64,000 bases of DNA from Subtercola lobariae. Lineage in GTDB: Bacteria; Actinomycetota; Actinomycetes; Actinomycetales; Microbacteriaceae. The stretch covers positions 176,699 through 240,698 of the forward strand of contig NZ_BMGP01000007.1 in NCBI RefSeq assembly GCF_014640255.1. The letters are read 5' to 3'. This document shows positions 9,459 to 60,164 of the stretch, piece by piece (position 1 is the stretch's first letter; each line of letters starts with the position of its first letter). The notes under the pieces are model-generated. The model made no database searches and had not been told where the DNA came from. It worked only from the letters and a program-made list of their open reading frames with translations. The position numbers and the translations under genes are program-made.

Positions 9459-9559
9459 GACGTCTCCCTTCGTGAAGTAATACCCCCACGCTACTCACCC
9501 TGAAATCTCGCGCAAGCAAGCAAAGGCTCGGCTAACGAAGGTAAGCGTTACCTCTTTTC

Positions 9560-48608: not shown

Positions 48609-48726
48609 GCACCGCGCGCCGCTCCCGCCGCTTCTTCGGTTTCTCGGATGGGCTCGGCGTGTAGTAGTCTAGGCAAGTTGTTTGGAGCCGAAAGGATTCA
48701 CTCAACACAACTCAATACCCGCTTAC

Positions 48727-48802
<76 letters not shown>

Positions 48803-48805
48803 GAT

Positions 48806-48841
48806 CGAACGAAGGCTCACCCTCGGGTGGGCCTTCGTTCG
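48806..48841 (+). terminator. Terminator hairpin of tRNA-Ala
   Basis: CGAACGAAGGC (48806-48816) is exactly complementary to GCCTTCGTTCG (48831-48841), an 11-bp stem that begins 4 nt after CCA. It ends 20 nt before the start codon of the next gene, so it also lies in that gene's leader. Confidence 0.75.
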
Positions 48842-48861
48842 TCTCAGCAAGAGGGGAATCC

Positions 48862-50556
48862 ATGTTCGCAATGAAGCGCGCCCTGGCCGTCGCTGCGGCC
48901 TCGGCTGTTGTTCTCGGTTCCGTGCTGGTCTCGACACCGGCGTTTGCCGCGCCAGACACCATCACGATCAGCGGTCACGTGTCGCTGGGCACCGCGTCCG
49001 CGGGCGCCGGCACGGTCGACATCTCCCTCATCAGAGGGTTCAACGCTCCGAGTGTTGTCGTCGGAACTGTCGATGCCGCAGGTGACTACTCTGTGCAGGT
49101 TGCCAAAGGCTCGTACTTCCTGCTCGAGGTCGACAACGTGGGTCCGGGCAACTATGCACCGTACCTGTCTGCCCCATTCGCGTCATCGAGCTGCACTGTC
49201 GACAGCCAGGACTACACCAGTGCGAGTGCAGACATCGCCGGGTGGGATATCGCGTTGCCCGTCGGTGGTGAACTGAGCGGTACCGTCAGGAATCTTCAGG
49301 GGTCGCCGGTATCCGGTGTCGAGGTCTGGGCCTACGACCAGCACCGCTGCGTCACTCTCGGGGACGGTCAGCCCAGCACCAAGATCACCGTGCCGAACAC
49401 CGACGAGACCGGAACGTACGATTTCAAGAATCTCGACGCCACGGGGGCCTACCAGGTCGAGTTCTACAGCGGAGCTGCTGAGCCGACAACCTACCTCGAG
49501 GGATTTCTCGGCATGGCATCCGGTGCCCCCAGGGGCATACCGTACACAGTGGCTACCGGCCAGGTGCGATCTGGCGCCGACATGACCTTGGTGCAAGGGG
49601 GATCGGTGCAGGGCAGCGTGAGCTGTGCATCCTGTGACCTGTCGCAGCTCGACCCGAGCAAGTTTGTGATCTCCATTGAGGGGTACAACGCGTCGGCCGG
49701 CACGTGGGTGAGCAGTTCTCCGGGTTATGTGCAGCGAGACGGTGCCGGTCTCACCTACCGAACACCCGCAACCTACCCGGGTGACTATCGCATCTCACTG
49801 TCGTACCCGGATGACGCTTTCCAGAGGATGTCGACCCAGACGTTCTCGATTTCAGAGGGAGCGGTGACGACCGAGAATCTCGCGCTGGCGTCAACGGCAT
49901 CGACGCAACCCGGCGTGCCCGCGGCGATAAACTCGTACATCACGTCGCTCTACAAGGATTTTCTGGGGCGCACTCCCGGGGCCAGCGAGATCGCCTTCTG
50001 GGCAGGCAAACTAAAGGCAGGATGGCCGCGCAGCTCGATCTCCACCGGCTTCGCCAACAGCGACGAGTACCGACTGATTCGAATCGACGCCGCCTACGAG
50101 TCGGTACTGCACCGGCAGAGCGACCCGCAGGGGCGCCTGTTCTGGCTCGACCGGATGCAGCGCGGCCTCACGACGACCGACGAAGTCGAGATGACGTACT
50201 ACGCCTCACAGGAGTACTACGACGACGGCGGTGGCAACGATGCCGGGTACGTCACCGGTGTGTATCTCGCTCTTCTGAACAGGCTGCCTTCCCAGGCCGA
50301 CATCTCGTTCTGGAGCGCGATCGCACAGCGTCAGGGCCGTATGGAGGTCGTCAAGGACTTCTGGAACTCTACTGAGACAGTACAGAAGCGCGTCTCGGCA
50401 ATGTACGCCCTCTACCTCGGGCGCACACCCGACCCGAGCGGTCTGACCACCTGGACCAACTTCGATCTCGCCAACGGCGATTCGTTGACGCGCTCGACCC
50501 TGACCTCGAGCGACGAGTACTACAACAGGGCTGCGACCAGATTCCCCGTCGCCTGA
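48862..50556 (+). CDS. Secreted protein with carboxypeptidase-regulatory-like repeats and DUF4214 repeats
   Basis: 564 residues from ATG 48862, with GAGGGG upstream. The signal peptide AVAAASAVVLGSVLVSTPAF ends at AFA-APDT. Residues about 30-340 are beta-rich, with Ig/CnaB-like turns (GELSGTVRNLQGSPVSGVEV, GTYDFKNLDATGAYQVEFYS). The C-terminal third has four DUF4214-type helical repeats (YKDFLGRTPGASEIAFWAGK, ESVLHRQSDPQGRLFWLDRM, LALLNRLPSQADISFW, ALYLGRTPDPSGLTTW). DUF4214 occurs in secreted surface proteins and enzymes acting on carbohydrate; its role is not established. No anchor is seen. Confidence 0.85.
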   Translation: MFAMKRALAVAAASAVVLGSVLVSTPAFAAPDTITISGHVSLGTASAGAGTVDISLIRGFNAPSVVVGTVDAAGDYSVQVAKGSYFLLEVDNVGPGNYAPYLSAPFASSSCTVDSQDYTSASADIAGWDIALPVGGELSGTVRNLQGSPVSGVEVWAYDQHRCVTLGDGQPSTKITVPNTDETGTYDFKNLDATGAYQVEFYSGAAEPTTYLEGFLGMASGAPRGIPYTVATGQVRSGADMTLVQGGSVQGSVSCASCDLSQLDPSKFVISIEGYNASAGTWVSSSPGYVQRDGAGLTYRTPATYPGDYRISLSYPDDAFQRMSTQTFSISEGAVTTENLALASTASTQPGVPAAINSYITSLYKDFLGRTPGASEIAFWAGKLKAGWPRSSISTGFANSDEYRLIRIDAAYESVLHRQSDPQGRLFWLDRMQRGLTTTDEVEMTYYASQEYYDDGGGNDAGYVTGVYLALLNRLPSQADISFWSAIAQRQGRMEVVKDFWNSTETVQKRVSAMYALYLGRTPDPSGLTTWTNFDLANGDSLTRSTLTSSDEYYNRAATRFPVA

Positions 50557-53288: not shown

Positions 53289-53355
53289 TCATTGAGATGA
53301 CCGAAGCGATCGCGGCGTCAGTCACGAACGCCGCGCATGCCTAGAACGCCGAGCG

Positions 53356-53488
53356 CGCGCAGGGCGCCGCGAACGGCGATCACGCGCAGGGCGCCGCGAA
53401 CGCGGAGCGCGCCCAGAGCCTCGCGCACTCCCAGCGCGCCTAGGACGCTCAGACCACTCCGACCGCTCCGACCACCCAGCGCGCCTAG
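53356..53488. repeat. GC-rich repeat scar between the MDR remnant and the S9 peptidase gene
   Basis: CGCGCAGGGCGCCGCGAACG occurs at 53356-53375 and 53383-53402. CCCAGCGCGCCTAG occurs at 53430-53443 and 53475-53488; the second copy covers the stop codon of the peptidase gene. Short ACTCCGACCGCTCCGACC-type repeats lie between. About 200 nt here have no credible gene. Confidence 0.75.
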
Positions 53489-55455
53489 AGCGTCTGCGCC
53501 AGAAACCGCACCATCGTCTCGCCGAGCAACCGCCTCGAGTCGGCCCGCCGGTACTCGTGGCCCTCGCCCGCGAGCTCGAGGTACTCGACCGGCTTGCCCC
53601 GCTCGCGTAGCGCCGACACCATCTGCAGCGCCTCGTTGAGCGGCACATTCGTGTCGAGCTCACCGTGCACCACGAGCACCGGCGCGCTGATGCGATCGGC
53701 CGACGGTAACGGCGAGATGCGGCGCAACAGCTTCTGATCGTGCTCCGGATGCCCGTACTTCGTCACCGCGGCCGCAGCGATCCACGGTTCGGTGTCTCGA
53801 TAGAACGTGAGCAGGTGTGACATGCCGCAGATGTCGATTCCGGCCGCGAACACCTCGGGTGAAAAGGCCAGCGACGCGAGCGTGAGGTAGCCGCCGTACG
53901 AGCGCCCCGTCACGGCGATGCGCGCTGGGTCGGCGACGCCGAGCGCCACGAGATGCCCGGCGCTCGCAATCACGTCGTCGAAGGCGCCCTGCCGACCGTG
54001 CACGTCGTCGAGGTGGCTGAAGGTGCGGCCGAAGCCCGAAGATCCACGAACGTTCGGCGCGAACACCGCGATTCCGGCGGCGAGCATTGCCTGATACTGC
54101 GGGTTGAAGGTGGGCCGCTCTTGCGACTCAGGCCCGCCGTGCAGGCTGAGCATCGCCCGGCCCGGCTCCATCGTTCCCGGCACCCGGTACAGCCATCCGG
54201 TCAGCGCCAGCCCGTCGGCACCCTCGAAGCGCTCGAGCGTCGGCGTCACGAGTTCACGCTCGGGCAACACCGGAACCTGCGTCACCCGCGCCCAGCGGTG
54301 CGTCGCGGTGTCGAGTCGCCAGAGCTCGCGAGGCCGTTCGGGCCCTTCGACGCTCAGGATGACCGTTCCCCCGTCACGGCTCAACACGGGGCTTGAGGCC
54401 ACGAGTCCCGGCAGCTCGGGCACCCCGATGCGCACGCCCGTGGTGGTGTCGAAGAGCTCGATCTCGCTGGTGCCGGCCCGGTTCCACACCATCAGCAGCA
54501 GACGCCCCGCATCGTCGGCGTCGAGCGCCTCGAGTTCGGCGTCATCACGTTCGGCGAGCACCTGCGGAACCCCGCGCCAGCCGTTCGGCCCGAGCGGCAA
54601 GGCGACGAGGCGATGCCGCTGCGCACCCACCTCGGTGGCGAGGTATGCCGTGAGGGGTGCCGACGCTCCGAGTTCGGCCAGAGCATCCGCCCCCTCGGGA
54701 GCAGGCCGAAGTAACGCGACCGACGTGGAGCCGGTCGCACCGGTGAGCAGGGCCGTGGCCGCTGCCGATTCGGCGGCAGCAACCACTGTGGTTGCCGAAC
54801 TGTGCGGCAGTAACGGGTGGTCTTGATCAGAGACGCGGTCGACGACGACACAGAATTCGTGGCCGCGCCGCCCATCGCGAATGATCACGAGCTCTTCGCC
54901 CACCGACAGGTCGAGCACGTGAATGAGCTCGCCTACGGCCAACAGTTCGAAATCGCCGGTCACGGGGTCGACCAGGTAGGTCGAGGTCGGCTCGCCGATC
55001 TCTGCCGACGGAATGGTGACGACCACGCGGTGACCACTGCGCGTCCACGGGCCGAGTTCGGCATGCTGCTCGGGCGATCCGGCCAAGCGACGAGCATCCG
55101 TACCGTCGGGTCTGACCACCCACACCTGGCTGCGCACCCCGCCGCCGGTGGCCACGGCGCAGGCGAGCCACGCGCTGTCGGCAGACCAGGTCACCGAAAT
55201 GACGGGGTCGTCACTGAGGTGGATGCACGTGGGTTGGGGCAGTGCGTCGCGCAGGGCATCCTCGCCGCTTGGTACCTCTTGCACCCACAGCTCTGGCACC
55301 CCGCCCCGATCGCTGATGAACGCCATTCGGCTCGCGTCGGGCGTCATGGTGGGGTTCCAGCTGCCCCAGGCGTCGACGAGGGCGTTGCCCAGCTCGACGG
55401 CCGATGCTACCGCCGGTGCGACGGCCTGTGTGACGGCTGCGTCAGCCTCGGTCAA
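53485..55455 (-). CDS. S9-family (prolyl oligopeptidase-like) serine peptidase
   Basis: 656 residues from TTG 55455, which overlaps the amidotransferase stop as TTGA and has AAGGA 5 nt upstream; GTG 55479 would add eight residues. The N-terminal ~380 residues form a WD/TolB-like beta propeller (MTPDASRMAFISDRGGVPEL, SADSAWLACAVA). The C-terminal alpha/beta hydrolase has the oxyanion region LSLHGGPESQERP, Ser in GRSYGGYLTLAS (near 516), Asp in VVHGELDTNVP (near 594) and His in GEGHEYRR (near 629). No signal peptide, so it is cytoplasmic. As the third gene of a peptide-ligase operon, it could trim or recycle the peptide made by its partners (inference). Confidence 0.9.
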   Translation of the reverse strand: MTEADAAVTQAVAPAVASAVELGNALVDAWGSWNPTMTPDASRMAFISDRGGVPELWVQEVPSGEDALRDALPQPTCIHLSDDPVISVTWSADSAWLACAVATGGGVRSQVWVVRPDGTDARRLAGSPEQHAELGPWTRSGHRVVVTIPSAEIGEPTSTYLVDPVTGDFELLAVGELIHVLDLSVGEELVIIRDGRRGHEFCVVVDRVSDQDHPLLPHSSATTVVAAAESAAATALLTGATGSTSVALLRPAPEGADALAELGASAPLTAYLATEVGAQRHRLVALPLGPNGWRGVPQVLAERDDAELEALDADDAGRLLLMVWNRAGTSEIELFDTTTGVRIGVPELPGLVASSPVLSRDGGTVILSVEGPERPRELWRLDTATHRWARVTQVPVLPERELVTPTLERFEGADGLALTGWLYRVPGTMEPGRAMLSLHGGPESQERPTFNPQYQAMLAAGIAVFAPNVRGSSGFGRTFSHLDDVHGRQGAFDDVIASAGHLVALGVADPARIAVTGRSYGGYLTLASLAFSPEVFAAGIDICGMSHLLTFYRDTEPWIAAAAVTKYGHPEHDQKLLRRISPLPSADRISAPVLVVHGELDTNVPLNEALQMVSALRERGKPVEYLELAGEGHEYRRADSRRLLGETMVRFLAQTL

Positions 55456-57236
55456 CGAATTCCTTGCGTCTGTAACCACATCTCTAGTAAAGCCAATTGC
55501 CAGAGCGCATTCGACCCTAGGGTGGTTCTCGTTTCGTTCGGGGCGGCGAGAAGGCGTTGCACCGTGGCGTCGTCGAAAATACCCCGTTCGCGGGCGGCCG
55601 GGTCGCTGAGTGCCTCGCGCACGCGGTTCAGGTAGGGGCCCTCGAGCTGCCTGATGGCAGGCACCGGAAAGTACCCCTTCGTGCGATCGATGACCTCGTC
55701 GGGCACGATTCCGCGGCTCGCGCGCTTCAGCACGCCCTTTCCGCCGTCGGCGAGCTTCAGGGGTGGGGGGATTTTCCCCACCAACTCGACGAACTCGTGG
55801 TCGAGAAAGGGCACACGCGCTTCGAGGCCCCAGGCCATGGTCATGTTGTCGACGCGCTTCACAGGGTCGTCGACCAGCATGATGGTGGTGTCGTTGCGAA
55901 GCGCTGCGTCAACCGAGGTTTCGGCCCCAGGGGCGGCGAATTGCCGCCTGATGAACTCGGTCGGTGCATCACTGCCGAACATCCACTCGGGTGACAGCAC
56001 CGAACTCATGGCAGGCCAGCGTCGATCGAAGAACACCTTCGAGTAGGCCTCCACGGCGTCGTCGCGGGCAACGTCGGCGAGCGGGGGATACCAGTCGTAA
56101 CCACCGAGCACCTCGTCGGCGCCCTGGCCCGACTGCACCACCTTCACCGACTTCGACACGTCTTCGCTCAGCAGGTAGAACGCCACGCAGTCGTGGCTCA
56201 CCATGGGCTCGCTCATCGCGGCAACGGCTCCGTCGATGCCCGGCAAGAGGCGCGAACTGTCGATGGTGATTCGGTGGTGGTCGGTGCCGAACCGTTCGGC
56301 CACCAGGGTCGAATACTCGAACTCGTCGCCTGACTCGCCGCCCGCCGAATCGAAGCCGATGCTGAAGGTCGCGAGGTCTTTTTGGCCGGCCTCGGCGAGC
56401 AGGGCCACCACGAGGCTCGAGTCGATGCCGCCCGAGAGCAGCACTCCCACGGGCACATCGGCGACCATGCGGCGTTCGACCGCCGTGCGCAGGCTCTGGA
56501 TGAGCGCGTCTTGCCAGTCGCGTTCTGACCAGTCTGCGCGCGATTCGTCGCGGCTGAAGTCAGGGCGCCAATACACGTGGTCGCGGCTTTCGCCGTTCGG
56601 CTCGATCACCCGAACCGTGGCCGGCGGCAGTTTACGCACGCCGGTCAGAATGGTCAGCGGCGCCGGCACCACGGAATGGAACGTCATGTAGTAAGCGAGG
56701 GCTTCACGATCGATCGACGTGTCCGTACCACCGCCGGCCACTAGAGCGGGCAGAGTCGACGCGAATCGCAGCCGGTCACGGGTCTGGTCGAGGTAGAGTG
56801 GTTTGATGCCGAGCCGGTCGCGGGCGAGCACCAGTCGGCCACTCTCGCGCTCCGCGATGGCGAAGGCGAACATTCCCAGAAAGTGGTCGACGCAGTGTAT
56901 GCCCCATTCGGCATATGCCTTGCCGATGACCTCGGTGTCTGAAGTGGAGAAGAAGGAGTAGCCCTTGCCTTCGAGCTCTTTACGCAAGTCTTGATAGTTG
57001 TAGATGCAGCCGTTGAACGCCACCGTGAGGCCGAGCGGGGCATCGACCATCGGCTGGCTTCCGGCCGCGCTCAAGTCGATGATGGAGAGGCGCCGGTGGC
57101 TGAGCGCAACGGGGCCGTGCGCCCAGAAGCCGTCGCCGTCGGGGCCGCGGTGCACCATGCACGAGTTCATTCGGGCGACGGCGCCGACGTCGGCGCTGCG
57201 GGAGTCGAAACGGAATTCGCCGGCCAGGCCGCACAT
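55452..57236 (-). CDS. AsnO-like glutamine amidotransferase (asparagine-synthase family, NAGGN type)
   Basis: 594 residues from ATG 57236, so that the catalytic Cys is residue 2 (MCGLAGEFRFDSR). The class II glutaminase domain has RGPDGDG, LSIIDLSAAGSQPM and FNGCIYNYQ. The synthetase domain has the PP-loop LLSGGIDSSLVVALLAE near residue 258, and VVQSGQGADEVLGGY. The sequence is closer to the amidotransferase of the N-acetylglutaminylglutamine amide system than to ordinary AsnB. Such enzymes turn a carboxylate into an amide using glutamine. The start lies 1 nt after the stop of the ligase fusion gene, so the two are coupled. Confidence 0.88.
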   Translation of the reverse strand: MCGLAGEFRFDSRSADVGAVARMNSCMVHRGPDGDGFWAHGPVALSHRRLSIIDLSAAGSQPMVDAPLGLTVAFNGCIYNYQDLRKELEGKGYSFFSTSDTEVIGKAYAEWGIHCVDHFLGMFAFAIAERESGRLVLARDRLGIKPLYLDQTRDRLRFASTLPALVAGGGTDTSIDREALAYYMTFHSVVPAPLTILTGVRKLPPATVRVIEPNGESRDHVYWRPDFSRDESRADWSERDWQDALIQSLRTAVERRMVADVPVGVLLSGGIDSSLVVALLAEAGQKDLATFSIGFDSAGGESGDEFEYSTLVAERFGTDHHRITIDSSRLLPGIDGAVAAMSEPMVSHDCVAFYLLSEDVSKSVKVVQSGQGADEVLGGYDWYPPLADVARDDAVEAYSKVFFDRRWPAMSSVLSPEWMFGSDAPTEFIRRQFAAPGAETSVDAALRNDTTIMLVDDPVKRVDNMTMAWGLEARVPFLDHEFVELVGKIPPPLKLADGGKGVLKRASRGIVPDEVIDRTKGYFPVPAIRQLEGPYLNRVREALSDPAARERGIFDDATVQRLLAAPNETRTTLGSNALWQLALLEMWLQTQGIR

Positions 57237-57237
57237 G

Positions 57238-59970
57238 TCAGTTCTCCTTCTCGGCCGGAGTTGCACCGTCGGCGGTGGGTTCTTGTGCTGCTTGTAAATC
57301 TTGAGGGTCGGCGGCATCGCCGAGTGCCGGCGGCGGCGACGTCAGCCGCGTCACCATGATGGGCCCGGTTCGCAGCAGAGCATTCTCTTCGAGCGAGGCG
57401 TCAGGCCCGAGAATCCAGGTGTCTTTCGCGCCGCCGCCCTGCGACGAGTTCACCACCATGCTGCCGAGCGGGGCGACCCGCGTCAGCGCCAAGTCGGCAA
57501 CGGTCGCATCACGAGGGCCGGTGCCGCGCACGTAGACGAAGGCACGCAGATCGACGTGACGGGGCTCGAGCGCGACTCCATCGAAGGTGGGCAGCGACGA
57601 GAGCGCAACCAGCTCTTGGGCGACCCAGATGGTGGGGTTCGCGGCGATCTCGCTGCGCCGTTCGGCGACCTGCGATGCCGGGGCAGCCGGGCCGATGAGC
57701 ACTCCGCGCCCGCCTTCGCCGTCGACCGGTTTCGTGACGAGTTCGCCCACGCGCTCGAGCACGATGCGCCTTTCAGACTCGTCGCTCGTGCGGTAGGTGG
57801 GAACCGATTCGAGCAGTGGCCGCTCGTTGAGGTAGTAGGCGATGAGATCGGGAATGTTGCAGTACATCGCCTTGTCGTCGGCGATTCCATTGCCTGGTGC
57901 ATTCGCGAGAAACACACCGCGTTCGGCTGCGACGCGCATGATCTCGGCACCGATGGGCTGGCCTTGGCTGTCGGTCAGGTCGATGAGCTCGGGGTCGAGT
58001 CGTAGGTAGAGAGCATGGATGACCGTGCCGGTGCTCTTCTCGATCACCGAAGGTACTGACGCTGTGCTCCCCGAGTCCTCAGCAGGCCAGACCACCTCGA
58101 GGTCGTCGGCCGACACGAGCAGAAGCCCTGCGCCTTCGGCCAGCCGCGAATGCTCGAACCAGGCCGAACTGGTCGGGCCGCTCGAGAGCAGCGCTGCTGT
58201 GGTGCTTGATCCAGGCTCGTGCAGAGTTGCGGCACCCCCGGCGAGAAGCGTTTCGCGCAAGTGAACGAGCGCCGAGTGCGGGTCGAGCAGGCCGCCCGGG
58301 CGGGGTAAGTCGGGCACCGTTGCATCCATCAGCCTGCGTGCAGCCATGGCATACGCCGCGCCGCTCGGTGCACGGAGGTTGTCTTCGAGTACGCGCCAGC
58401 CGCCGAACTCGTTGCGCACCAGGTCGAAACCCATGATGGGCGCGCGCACGACGCCGGGCGGAATCAGCGTGGCTTCTTCGCGCCAGCCGGGGGAGTCGAA
58501 GATGTTGGCTGGCATCAGGCCGTCGGCGATGATGCGCTGTTCGCCGTAGACGTCTTGCAGAAATGCCTCGATGGCGCGGGCGCGCTGGGCGAGACCGGCG
58601 CCGAGTTCGGCCCATTGATAGGCGCTGATGAGGCGCGGAAAGAGGTCGACGTCGAAGCTCTGCATCTCGCCGTTCACACCGAAGGTGAGGCCTTCGCCGT
58701 CGGTGAATCCGGTGCGCGAATTCTCCCGTTCGAGCAGTTCGGAGGGCGGCAGCGAGCGGTAGAAGTCGATGATGTCGTGGTAGGCGGGCCGCGGCATCGA
58801 GCTGGGGCCGACTGCTTCGTCGCCCGCCCGGTTGCGATACGAACGCATCGCCGAAACCGAGGGAGCTGTGCCGTGCGCGGGGCCGTGCGTCTCTTGCACC
58901 ACGAGTTCGACCACGTCGCGCAGCTCACCACGCTCGGCAAAAGCCGCACGCTGGCGGTCGGCCGAGTTGCCGCGGGCCAGGGTGAATTCGCTGAGTTCGC
59001 GCACCTCGTCGTAGTCGCCGAGTTCTTCGAGCTGAGGCCTGAGCCGCGACACCAGATCACGAACGGCCCACGCTGCCGGAACAGGCCTCGGGTGAGAGGT
59101 GCCGTCGAGTAGTTGCCCCGAGAGCCCGCCCCGTGCCGCTTGCCACATGGCAGCGCGGTGAAGGGGAGCCCGCAGCAGGGTGGCGGGCACACCGGCTTCG
59201 ATGTCGATTTCGGCGGCCCGCACTGAGGCGCGAAAGAGGCCTGCGATAAGTATGGCGTCGTCGATGATGGGGCAGGCGTCGCACACCCGCAGCTCGAGGG
59301 TGGGCTCGTGTGCCGACGGTCGCACGTCGAAGTATGCCATCTTCGCGTCGGCGATGACCCCGCTGGCGATGAGGTCGGCGAGAAGCTCGTCGTATTCGGC
59401 TCCCGACTCGAGGTCACCGGTCGCGCCGGCGCTCGGCCAGCGTTGCCAGATGGTGGTGCGGATGCTCGCGTACCCGGTATCGTGCCCGTTCAGAAAGGGC
59501 GAACTCGCTGAGAGCGCGAGCAGAATCGGCAGGTCGCGAGACACTCGCTGCGCGATCTGAACGGCAAGGTCACGGTCTGAGACACCCACGTGAATCTGGG
59601 TGCCGCAGATGAGCTGCTCGTCGACGAGCAGACGGTACTGCTCCTGCATGCGGCGATACCGGCCGGTGGCGGTGAGTTCGAAGTCGGCGAAGTCGGAGTG
59701 CGGTGCGGTGCCTACGGCGGCCACTCCGAGGCCAAAGGCAGCGGCTTCGTCGATGAGGCCCTTGCGCAGTCGCACGAGTTCGGCCCGCAAGCCGGAAAGG
59801 GTCGACGTGACGGCCGTATTGGTCTCGACCGTTGTGCGCTGAATCTCGGCCGAATAGCTGCTTTGCGGCAGCCTCGACAGCAGCTGTGGTGCACGGGCCG
59901 AAAGCTTTCCGCTTTCGAGATCGATGAGATGCAATTCTTCTTCTGCACCGAGGGTCAACTCTGCACTCAT
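57238..59970 (-). CDS. Fusion: GCS2-type carboxylate-amine ligase + circularly permuted ATP-grasp
   Basis: 910 residues from ATG 59970. Residues 1 to about 375 are a glutamate-cysteine ligase type 2 (YbdK-like) domain: LGAEEELHLIDLESGK, LICGTQIHVGV, SSPFLNGHDTGYASIR, TLELRVCDACP. From about 390 to 885 comes a circularly permuted ATP-grasp (DUF404/DUF407): LISAYQWAELGAGLAQRARA, DDKAMYCNIPDLIAYYLNER, VTKPVDGEGGRGVLIGP, EPRHVDLRAFV, VNSSQGGGAKDTWIL. Both modules form amide bonds using ATP, so one polypeptide could make two successive ligations. TAGGTT ends 6 nt before the ATG, suggesting a leaderless operon promoter. The product is unknown. Confidence 0.92.
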   Translation of the reverse strand: MSAELTLGAEEELHLIDLESGKLSARAPQLLSRLPQSSYSAEIQRTTVETNTAVTSTLSGLRAELVRLRKGLIDEAAAFGLGVAAVGTAPHSDFADFELTATGRYRRMQEQYRLLVDEQLICGTQIHVGVSDRDLAVQIAQRVSRDLPILLALSASSPFLNGHDTGYASIRTTIWQRWPSAGATGDLESGAEYDELLADLIASGVIADAKMAYFDVRPSAHEPTLELRVCDACPIIDDAILIAGLFRASVRAAEIDIEAGVPATLLRAPLHRAAMWQAARGGLSGQLLDGTSHPRPVPAAWAVRDLVSRLRPQLEELGDYDEVRELSEFTLARGNSADRQRAAFAERGELRDVVELVVQETHGPAHGTAPSVSAMRSYRNRAGDEAVGPSSMPRPAYHDIIDFYRSLPPSELLERENSRTGFTDGEGLTFGVNGEMQSFDVDLFPRLISAYQWAELGAGLAQRARAIEAFLQDVYGEQRIIADGLMPANIFDSPGWREEATLIPPGVVRAPIMGFDLVRNEFGGWRVLEDNLRAPSGAAYAMAARRLMDATVPDLPRPGGLLDPHSALVHLRETLLAGGAATLHEPGSSTTAALLSSGPTSSAWFEHSRLAEGAGLLLVSADDLEVVWPAEDSGSTASVPSVIEKSTGTVIHALYLRLDPELIDLTDSQGQPIGAEIMRVAAERGVFLANAPGNGIADDKAMYCNIPDLIAYYLNERPLLESVPTYRTSDESERRIVLERVGELVTKPVDGEGGRGVLIGPAAPASQVAERRSEIAANPTIWVAQELVALSSLPTFDGVALEPRHVDLRAFVYVRGTGPRDATVADLALTRVAPLGSMVVNSSQGGGAKDTWILGPDASLEENALLRTGPIMVTRLTSPPPALGDAADPQDLQAAQEPTADGATPAEKEN

Positions 59971-59976
59971 TTTTTC

Positions 59977-59982
59977 AACCTA
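59977..59982 (-). promoter_or_regulatory. -10 box of the ligase-amidotransferase-peptidase operon
   Basis: On the minus strand TAGGTT is followed by GAAAAA and then the ATG of the fusion gene: TANNNT-N6-ATG, the leaderless geometry also seen at rpiB and proA. A weak AGG within the box is the only possible ribosome site. Confidence 0.5.
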
Positions 59983-60094
59983 GTGCGGCTGGGCCTCCTT
60001 CGCAGAATTACGGGGCAAATCCATGGGGAGTTGACAACTTCTGCGCGCGCTGACAGTGCCCTGGGGTGGCAGACTGAAACGATGAGGTGCTGGC

Positions 60095-60164
60095 GTGAGC
60101 GACGGTGAGCGACCGCGTGCGACCGCGTGCGACCGTTTGCGTCGGTGAACGACCGTGAGCGACG
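60095..60164 (+). repeat. Seven 10-bp tandem repeats covering the start of the alpha/beta hydrolase gene
   Basis: Units related to GTGAGCGACC/GCGTGCGACC repeat seven times in phase from 60095 to 60164; the last unit contains the GTG start codon (60155). The repeat gives several look-alike GTGAGCGA starts in different frames upstream of the real one. Confidence 0.75.

Follow-up and report, generated by a model that had tools for sequence, protein, structure and literature searches.

An actinobacterial operon joins an AsnO-type amidotransferase to a GCS2/permuted ATP-grasp fusion and an S9 peptidase: a conserved variant of AsnO-based peptide amide systems

INTRODUCTION

What does a bacterium make with two fused amide-bond-forming enzymes, an amidotransferase and a peptidase, encoded by three closely packed genes? 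The question is raised by an operon of Subtercola lobariae within a stretch of 64,000 nucleotides (assembly GCF_014640255.1, contig NZ_BMGP01000007.1, positions 176,699 to 240,698), which we call the window. The operon encodes a fusion of a GCS2 ligase with a circularly permuted ATP-grasp ligase, an amidotransferase of the AsnO type and a peptidase of family S9. AsnO is familiar from the N-acetylglutaminylglutamine amide (NAGGN) system of Sinorhizobium and Pseudomonas, which consists of AsnO, Ngg and often an M42 peptidase. Our data show that the operon is a real, conserved variant of AsnO-based peptide amide systems, with no earlier description found within the literature searched, and that it is related to the NAGGN system and is not a member of it. 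As to its product, we see an even chance that a gamma-glutamyl peptide with a C-terminal amide is both made and recycled; the role of this peptide, judged by analogy, would probably be that of a compatible solute.

RESULTS

The operon and its AsnO

Pfam matches all three proteins (Table 1) in the way that a preliminary description, made from the letters of the window, had proposed: a 910-residue GCS2/permuted ATP-grasp fusion, a Cys2 amidotransferase and an S9 peptidase. The packing that it described was likewise read in the DNA of the minus strand at the places given, with a 1-nt gap from the fusion gene to asnO and a 4-nt overlap, TTGA, between asnO and the S9 gene. The latter runs from a TTG at 55455 to 53485; an alternative start, a GTG at 55479, would give 664 aa.

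The amidotransferase combines Asn_synthase with a GATase_7 domain bearing Cys2 (Pfam) and scores 952 bits against TIGR03104, where the cut-off is 570. It is the one match over this cut-off in its own genome (4.09 Mb in 22 contigs searched), two other matches being short. In a quick tree of 62 AsnO proteins, chosen from the larger set retrieved, E. coli AsnB (the sole AsnB included, ∼32% identical) is a remote outgroup on a very long branch, so the grouping with ordinary AsnB that the preliminary description had envisaged as an objection did not appear. The protein is 58.7% identical to that of S. meliloti 1021, and its structure model has a mean predicted local distance difference test (pLDDT) score of 83.7. 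Among the alignment columns that are at least 90% conserved both in fusion-linked (21 proteins) and in Ngg-linked AsnO (20 proteins), 242 of 244 are the same and 2 differ; when two groups of Ngg-linked AsnO are compared with each other, 243 of 246 jointly conserved columns are the same and 3 differ. Five AsnO proteins from loci with a distant GCS2 or no ligase differ from the Ngg-linked ones at 9 of 209 such columns. This conservation suggests that the substrate end that becomes amidated is the same in the fusion and Ngg systems, and that shared acceptor end is probably a C-terminal glutamine. Since the conserved positions are as in NAGGN systems, a difference in product should lie away from the amidated end.

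Relation to the NAGGN system

The AsnO family is common to both systems, and in both the gene set also encodes a peptidase and a peptide ligase driven by ATP. They differ in the partners: in NAGGN systems the ligase is Ngg, a GNAT domain joined to a cyanophycin-synthetase-like ATP-grasp, and the peptidase is M42, whereas here GCS2 and a permuted ATP-grasp stand with an S9 peptidase, and Pfam finds no acetyltransferase domain in the three operon proteins. The best match to Ngg (TIGR03103) in the own genome reaches 30.5 bits against a cut-off of 569, and TIGR03106, the M42 family of NAGGN systems, is unmatched there. The preliminary proposal that AsnO has been kept while Ngg with its acetyltransferase and M42 have been replaced is thus borne out, on the first count by the TIGR03104 score, the tree and the conserved positions, and on the second by the genome-wide lack of TIGR03103 and TIGR03106 matches over cut-off. 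As Ngg was tested and is absent, we do not count the operon as a member of the NAGGN system.

The same holds beyond this genome. None of 44 genomes whose AsnO locus is non-canonical has Ngg (TIGR03103, E ≤ 1e–60), against all three canonical controls, and the ligase partners of AsnO are therefore mutually exclusive in this sample. TIGR03104 scores over cut-off in 46 of 396 genomes from the phylum, and 14 of the 45 classifiable loci lack Ngg, as do those 14 genomes elsewhere. By neighbours, the 46 comprise 31 loci with Ngg, four with the fusion (this window and three of one other family), four with a stand-alone GCS2 and S9, four with a stand-alone permuted ATP-grasp, and single cases with a distant GCS2 (L052), with S9 alone (L084) and truncated (L054); these labels derive from tblastn against reference proteins taken from the same loci. 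A DUF1028 protein follows the stand-alone permuted ATP-grasp in three of four loci (L075, L077 and L081, from a different actinobacterial family), the fourth (L053) being cut by a contig end. Canonical NAGGN loci do not always include M42: it comes right after Ngg in 9 of the 31 Ngg-type loci, some of the 31 being truncated at contig ends, and the 10.8-kb asnO-ngg locus of S. meliloti 1021 (L118), unlike that of Azospirillum (L123), gave no M42 match (E ≤ 1e–8).

Conservation of gene order

A profile of 18 fusions was run against one genome collection. The 80 loci from named hosts are the best 80 of at least 458 relatives, are biased to close kin and overlap the same-family sample described below (L127 and G594, for example). 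All 80 carry both GCS2 and the permuted ATP-grasp; the nearest, from Subtercola metagenome-assembled genomes, are 86–87% identical over the best segment, and other hosts include Herbiconiux, Curtobacterium, Rathayibacter, Frigoribacterium, Kineococcus, Blastococcus, Geodermatophilus, Microlunatus, Nakamurella, Mumia, Cellulomonas and Paractinoplanes. AsnO lies directly downstream of the fusion in 62 loci, 6 to 206 bp away as measured between tblastn match ends, and S9 follows too in 58 of these 62; 17 loci are without AsnO and one ends at a contig edge.

In the 299 genomes of the same family TIGR03104 (E ≤ 1e–150) occurs in 31, at 32 loci, and in none of the other 268. The fusion accompanies 27 of these loci, the window included, a distant GCS2 two, and no recognised ligase lies near the remaining three. 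AsnO directly follows the fusion in 26 of 26 fusion-type relatives that have it, and S9 is downstream in 26 of the 27 fusion loci, while in L089 the contig ends after AsnO. The S9 gene is further off in L108, L109 and L111, with a HAD-type gene between in L109, and L108 has the ATP-grasp part alone of the fusion on its contig. The search for the three-gene order that the preliminary description had suggested thus found it conserved in both samples; the order is more than chance, and the three genes form a conserved operon.

Two side observations belong here. The three same-family AsnO genes with no recognised ligase nearby (L113, L115, L116) form one AsnO clade with the two distant-GCS2 loci, with more changed conserved positions; their neighbours, in a Pfam scan of two sets of ten proteins around unusual AsnO loci, include a nucleoside hydrolase, an HSP70-like protein, a DEAD helicase and secretion genes, and one genome (G463) holds both such a locus and the fusion operon. 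At 9543–13209 of L143 (Frondihabitans sucicola) AsnO and S9 are matched piecemeal, in overlapping or closely spaced fragments, as from frameshifts or sequencing errors.

The fusion protein

Both halves of the fusion are strongly assigned (GCS2, PF04107, E 8.1e–50, 170.2 bits at a cut-off of 21; CP_ATPgrasp_2, E 2.7e–98). Among NCBIfam models the protein passes NF010041, 'glutamate--cysteine ligase' (353 bits, cut-off 332), and its GCS2 domain passes TIGR02050 (259.4 bits, cut-off 176.4). E10, E12, E49, H127, R171, R217, E226, R228 and D231 are identical in E. coli YbdK, and a catalytic role is likely for residues of this kind. In the permuted ATP-grasp K700, K747, E786, R809 and D850 are invariant across 36 aligned fusions, which points to a possible functional role. 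Membership in two known families was considered and rejected: EgtA, by a TIGR03444 score of 20.7 bits at a cut-off of 370.8, and GshF, as the 11 NCBIfam models that match the fusion (E ≤ 0.001) include neither TIGR01435 nor NF002688.

The structure model of the fusion (mean pLDDT 83.7; residues 858–910 form a low-confidence tail) was the one model searched with Foldseek. Among 50 of the 163 matches 3n6x and YbdK (1r8g) come first, followed by glutathione synthetases from human, plants and other sources; plant glutamate-cysteine ligase (2gwc), the bifunctional GshF (3ln6, 3ln7) and the fungal ligase Cp1B are matched as well. Sequence matches to 3n6x cover residues 381–854 and those to YbdK residues 3–354; the other structures come without query ranges, and the half that each of them matches is presumptive. 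Cp1B is an ATP-grasp enzyme that forms pseudodipeptides and shares its three-domain plan with glutathione synthetases (PMC12568646).

Origin of the ligase halves

In a quick tree of GCS2 domains (L234 and L235 being short fragments; L222, L223 and L233 dropped as having no alignable segment) the fusion GCS2 and the stand-alone GCS2 of AsnO-S9 loci from Streptomyces and relatives form one clade with a Shimodaira–Hasegawa-like approximate likelihood ratio test (SH-aLRT) support of 97. Its first branch (99) holds six of seven stand-alone proteins; the seventh (L120, Nonomuraea) branches nearer the fusions. The ordinary GCS2 paralog of the own genome is placed elsewhere (the paralog search covered 16 genomes). 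Fusion and stand-alone GCS2 differ at 3 of 90 jointly conserved positions, versus 25 of 73 for the paralog clade. Since AsnO and S9 are also accompanied by a GCS2 of this clade that stands alone, the second ligase can be dispensed with.

A careful tree places the ATP-grasp half of the fusions in one clade (98/96), apart from the stand-alone ATP-grasps of the DUF1028 type and from those linked to alpha-E proteins; comparison of positions covered three of the four stand-alone proteins, with L077 in two pieces. The fusion ATP-grasp is 38.7% identical to a Tsukamurella protein from an alpha-E/transglutaminase gene set. Judged from these trees, the simplest story would be that GCS2-AsnO-S9 is the older unit, to which the second ligase was added later.

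The S9 peptidase and its link to AsnO

The best solved-structure match of the S9 protein is an amino acyl peptidase (5l8s). In the same-family sample S9 (E ≤ 1e–120) is present in 26 of 27 genomes with fusion and AsnO versus 0 of 5 with the fusion only (Fisher P-value = 3e–5, uncorrected for kinship); two further genomes have it, G663 with AsnO and no fusion, and G411 as a weaker, 55% partial match. Among the named loci it was found (E ≤ 1e–60) in 1 of 15 fusion genomes that lack AsnO. On a quick tree of the fusions AsnO changes nine times, at least seven of them on starred branches, and over a median of seven independent pairs S9 differs the same way as AsnO in six, the opposite way in none and not at all in one (sign test, median P-value = 0.031, range 0.031–0.0625). 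For this analysis AsnO was scored as present in L163 and L184, which carry it elsewhere in the genome, and L172, at a contig end, was left out; for S9 L146, L172, L179 and L181 (whose S9 was found, 67% identical) were left out, L133 and L135 scored as absent and L198 as present.

S9 thus mostly comes and goes with AsnO. Aligned loci give a direct view of this in Herbiconiux and Naasia, where the AsnO-S9 stretch is absent between flanks that align on both sides (L148 vs L164, L136 vs L183); no aligning downstream flank was found in the pairs L126 vs L127 and L128 and L200 vs L150, and in L166 vs L162 the gap is occupied by other sequence. The idea of three inseparable genes is rejected, since the fusion without AsnO, S9 without AsnO and AsnO without a clear S9 were all seen.

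Layout and flanks of the operon

The stretch upstream of the fusion gene is the presumed promoter region (Table 1). A scan with the sigma-70 consensus, which is poorly suited to a high-GC actinobacterium, gave 0 promoter sites (mean of 0.6 in shuffled sequence), and the terminator scan gave 3 terminator-like sites versus 4.0 in shuffles. GC-rich short tandem repeats lie on both sides of the operon, at 53344–53448 (27-bp unit, 3.9 copies) and at 60094–60163 (10-bp unit, 7 copies). Elsewhere in the window a tRNA-Ala gene (48727–48802) falls inside a long open reading frame (ORF), 48682–50556, whose listed start is probably too early.

Table 1. Features of the operon in the window
Feature	Position	Strand	Evidence
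Fusion gene, GCS2 (YbdK-type carboxylate-amine ligase) and circularly permuted type 2 ATP-grasp, 910 aa	57238..59970	-	domain matches, structure model, Foldseek
GCS2 domain, fusion residues 7-282	59125..59952	-	Pfam
Circularly permuted ATP-grasp domain, fusion residues 445-833	57472..58638	-	Pfam
AsnO-type glutamine-hydrolysing amidotransferase, 594 aa, Cys2, SGGIDSS loop at 268-274	55452..57236	-	TIGR03104, tree
S9 peptidase, 656 aa	53485..55455	-	Pfam Peptidase_S9; 5l8s structure match
Intergenic stretch between fusion gene and divergent 287-aa ORF; presumed promoter region	59971..60154	.	ORF list

DISCUSSION

Because of the GCS2 and ATP-grasp families of its two halves, the fusion is expected to form two ATP-driven amide bonds, the first on the gamma-carboxyl of glutamate. 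The GCS2 domain would activate this carboxyl with ATP and join it to an amino acid, and the permuted ATP-grasp, with its glutathione synthetase-like fold, would add a further residue, so that the fusion would act like the pair of glutamate-cysteine ligase and glutathione synthetase in glutathione synthesis. AsnO would then amidate the C-terminal carboxyl with glutamine nitrogen, most likely that of a glutamine residue as in NAGGN, a step for which the conserved positions give some support, and S9 would hydrolyse the amidated peptide once it is no longer needed. The expected product is gamma-Glu-Gln-NH2 in genomes with a stand-alone GCS2 and gamma-Glu-X-Gln-NH2 with the fusion. The amide would bring the net charge of the peptide to zero, which suits a compatible solute, and genomes lacking AsnO would keep the acid form. 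Viewed in this way, the operon might combine features of glutathione and NAGGN synthesis.

The osmotic role is proposed because of the canonical NAGGN pathway. P. aeruginosa grows more slowly in 0.5 M NaCl or 0.7 M sucrose once its asnO homologue PA3459 or the entire operon has been deleted (PMC8070244). The actinobacterium Micromonospora provocatoris was found by nuclear magnetic resonance (NMR) to contain NAGGN, with asnO and ngg predicted by the authors (PMC8146288), and Micromonospora clusters are called NAGGN in another paper (PMC11537254).

Several points weigh against an amidated gamma-glutamyl peptide. Its identity, the substrates and any induction by stress are all inferred from protein families and analogy. 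To our knowledge, little chemistry has been assigned to the families of GCS2 and of permuted ATP-grasp. With TIGR01536, the model for asparagine synthases in general, AsnO scores over cut-off too (426 bits, cut-off 267). Fifteen of the 17 fusion loci without AsnO belong to genomes with no TIGR03104 match anywhere (E ≤ 1e–100), the other two having one elsewhere (L163, L184), and amidation is therefore not essential to the fusion. S9 directly follows the fusion where AsnO was not found in the genome, in the metagenome-assembled L198 (E 7.6e–182) and in G317 (87% complete); here AsnO may be absent or may lie on unassembled contigs. Conversely, L133 and L135 have AsnO without a clear S9 ortholog (43–44% partial matches). 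Two GCS2 proteins nested in the fusion clade have no ATP-grasp match at the locus (L249 and L255, in genomes G435 and G663), which suggests loss of that half and shows that it can be spared; in G663 GCS2 still adjoins S9, with AsnO elsewhere in the genome. Finally, the GCS2 of Mycobacterium branderi falls in the same clade, nearer the fusions, and has no AsnO beside it. This plasmid gene (L206), 51% identical to the GCS2 half of the fusion, lies two genes after a CsbD-family gene.

A different use of the same chemistry would be a redox or storage peptide, i.e. a glutathione-like thiol or a nitrogen store, in place of a compatible solute. The domain plan and the fold matches are those of glutathione-making enzymes, the fusion passes the glutamate--cysteine ligase model, and genomes that keep the fusion without AsnO show that a neutral solute is not its sole useful product. 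However, AsnO is shared with a known osmolyte pathway and is kept elsewhere with quite different ligases, which would fit a bulk solute better than a specific thiol, and we regard this explanation as rather unlikely. The bifunctional GshF likewise has an N-terminal gamma-glutamyl ligase and a C-terminal ATP-grasp; this is a likeness of plan and not of family, as the ATP-grasp of the fusion is of the permuted type and the GshF models are unmatched. With the YbdK family the operon shares the GCS2 domain, which here has a second ligase joined to it and AsnO and S9 as neighbours.

The near identity of AsnO at conserved positions, together with the NMR finding in Micromonospora provocatoris (PMC8146288), would also agree with NAGGN itself being made by a different ligase, with glutamine acetylated by an acetyltransferase encoded elsewhere. 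Yet Ngg is missing from all 44 such genomes, the three operon proteins contain no GNAT domain (no search was made for a free acetyltransferase encoded elsewhere), and a ligase activating the gamma-carboxyl is not needed for N-acetyl-Gln-Gln, although its residues are kept. Taken together, this makes the explanation quite doubtful.

It is also conceivable that the target of the permuted ATP-grasp is a protein or peptide to be modified, as might be suspected for the sets of ATP-grasp, alpha-E and transglutaminase genes, with AsnO acting separately. The ATP-grasp is of the same family, and 86 of 90 jointly conserved positions are the same in the fusion and in four alpha-E-linked proteins. But these four (L207–L210) form their own clade outside that of the fusions, neither alpha-E nor transglutaminase genes are among the three of the operon, and the closeness of the fusion to AsnO in the 62 loci speaks against separate action; we consider this improbable. 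That AsnO is simply the asparagine synthetase of the cell, with coincidental neighbours, is hardly credible and was rejected: it is the sole full-length TIGR03104 match of its genome and passes TIGR01536, but TIGR03104 exceeds the latter by 526 bits, E. coli AsnB is a distant outgroup, such a gene is missing from 268 of the 299 genomes of the family (E ≤ 1e–150), and the gene order is conserved.

We return to the amidated gamma-glutamyl peptide and to its wider context. No description of the fusion with AsnO was found in the titles and abstract openings of open-licence literature. The 2009 amidoligase survey by Iyer and colleagues reportedly may already mention such gene sets. A plasmid of Streptomyces fungicidicus carries an 'N-acetylglutaminylglutamine amidotransferase' between a GCS2 protein ('glutamate--cysteine ligase') and an S9-matching 'alpha/beta fold hydrolase', with no Ngg match at the locus; if the proposed reading is true, this name can mislead. 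One study places a dipeptidase gene between asnO and 'ngg' in Frankia, with 'ngg' less than 15% identical to other Ngg (PMC5563000), and another reports that the Frankia alni glutamine amidotransferase FRAAL1888, assigned to NAGGN synthesis, is raised by polyethylene glycol (PMC5768760). We suspect that the asnO loci of Frankia are variant loci too.

A broader idea, to which we give somewhat less than an even chance, is that Actinomycetota possess a modular kit for amidated peptide solutes, in which a single AsnO with near-constant conserved positions is paired with one or another of several ligases (Ngg, GCS2, permuted ATP-grasp or the fusion) and hydrolases (M42, S9, DUF1028), both kinds being interchangeable. 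The fusion would then lead to a new class of gamma-glutamyl peptide amides, and 'NAGGN producers' recognised by AsnO only would make a different solute. If true, this would reveal that actinobacteria make small peptide protectants of a family so far unrecognised, and would give the fusion of GCS2 and permuted ATP-grasp a testable role.

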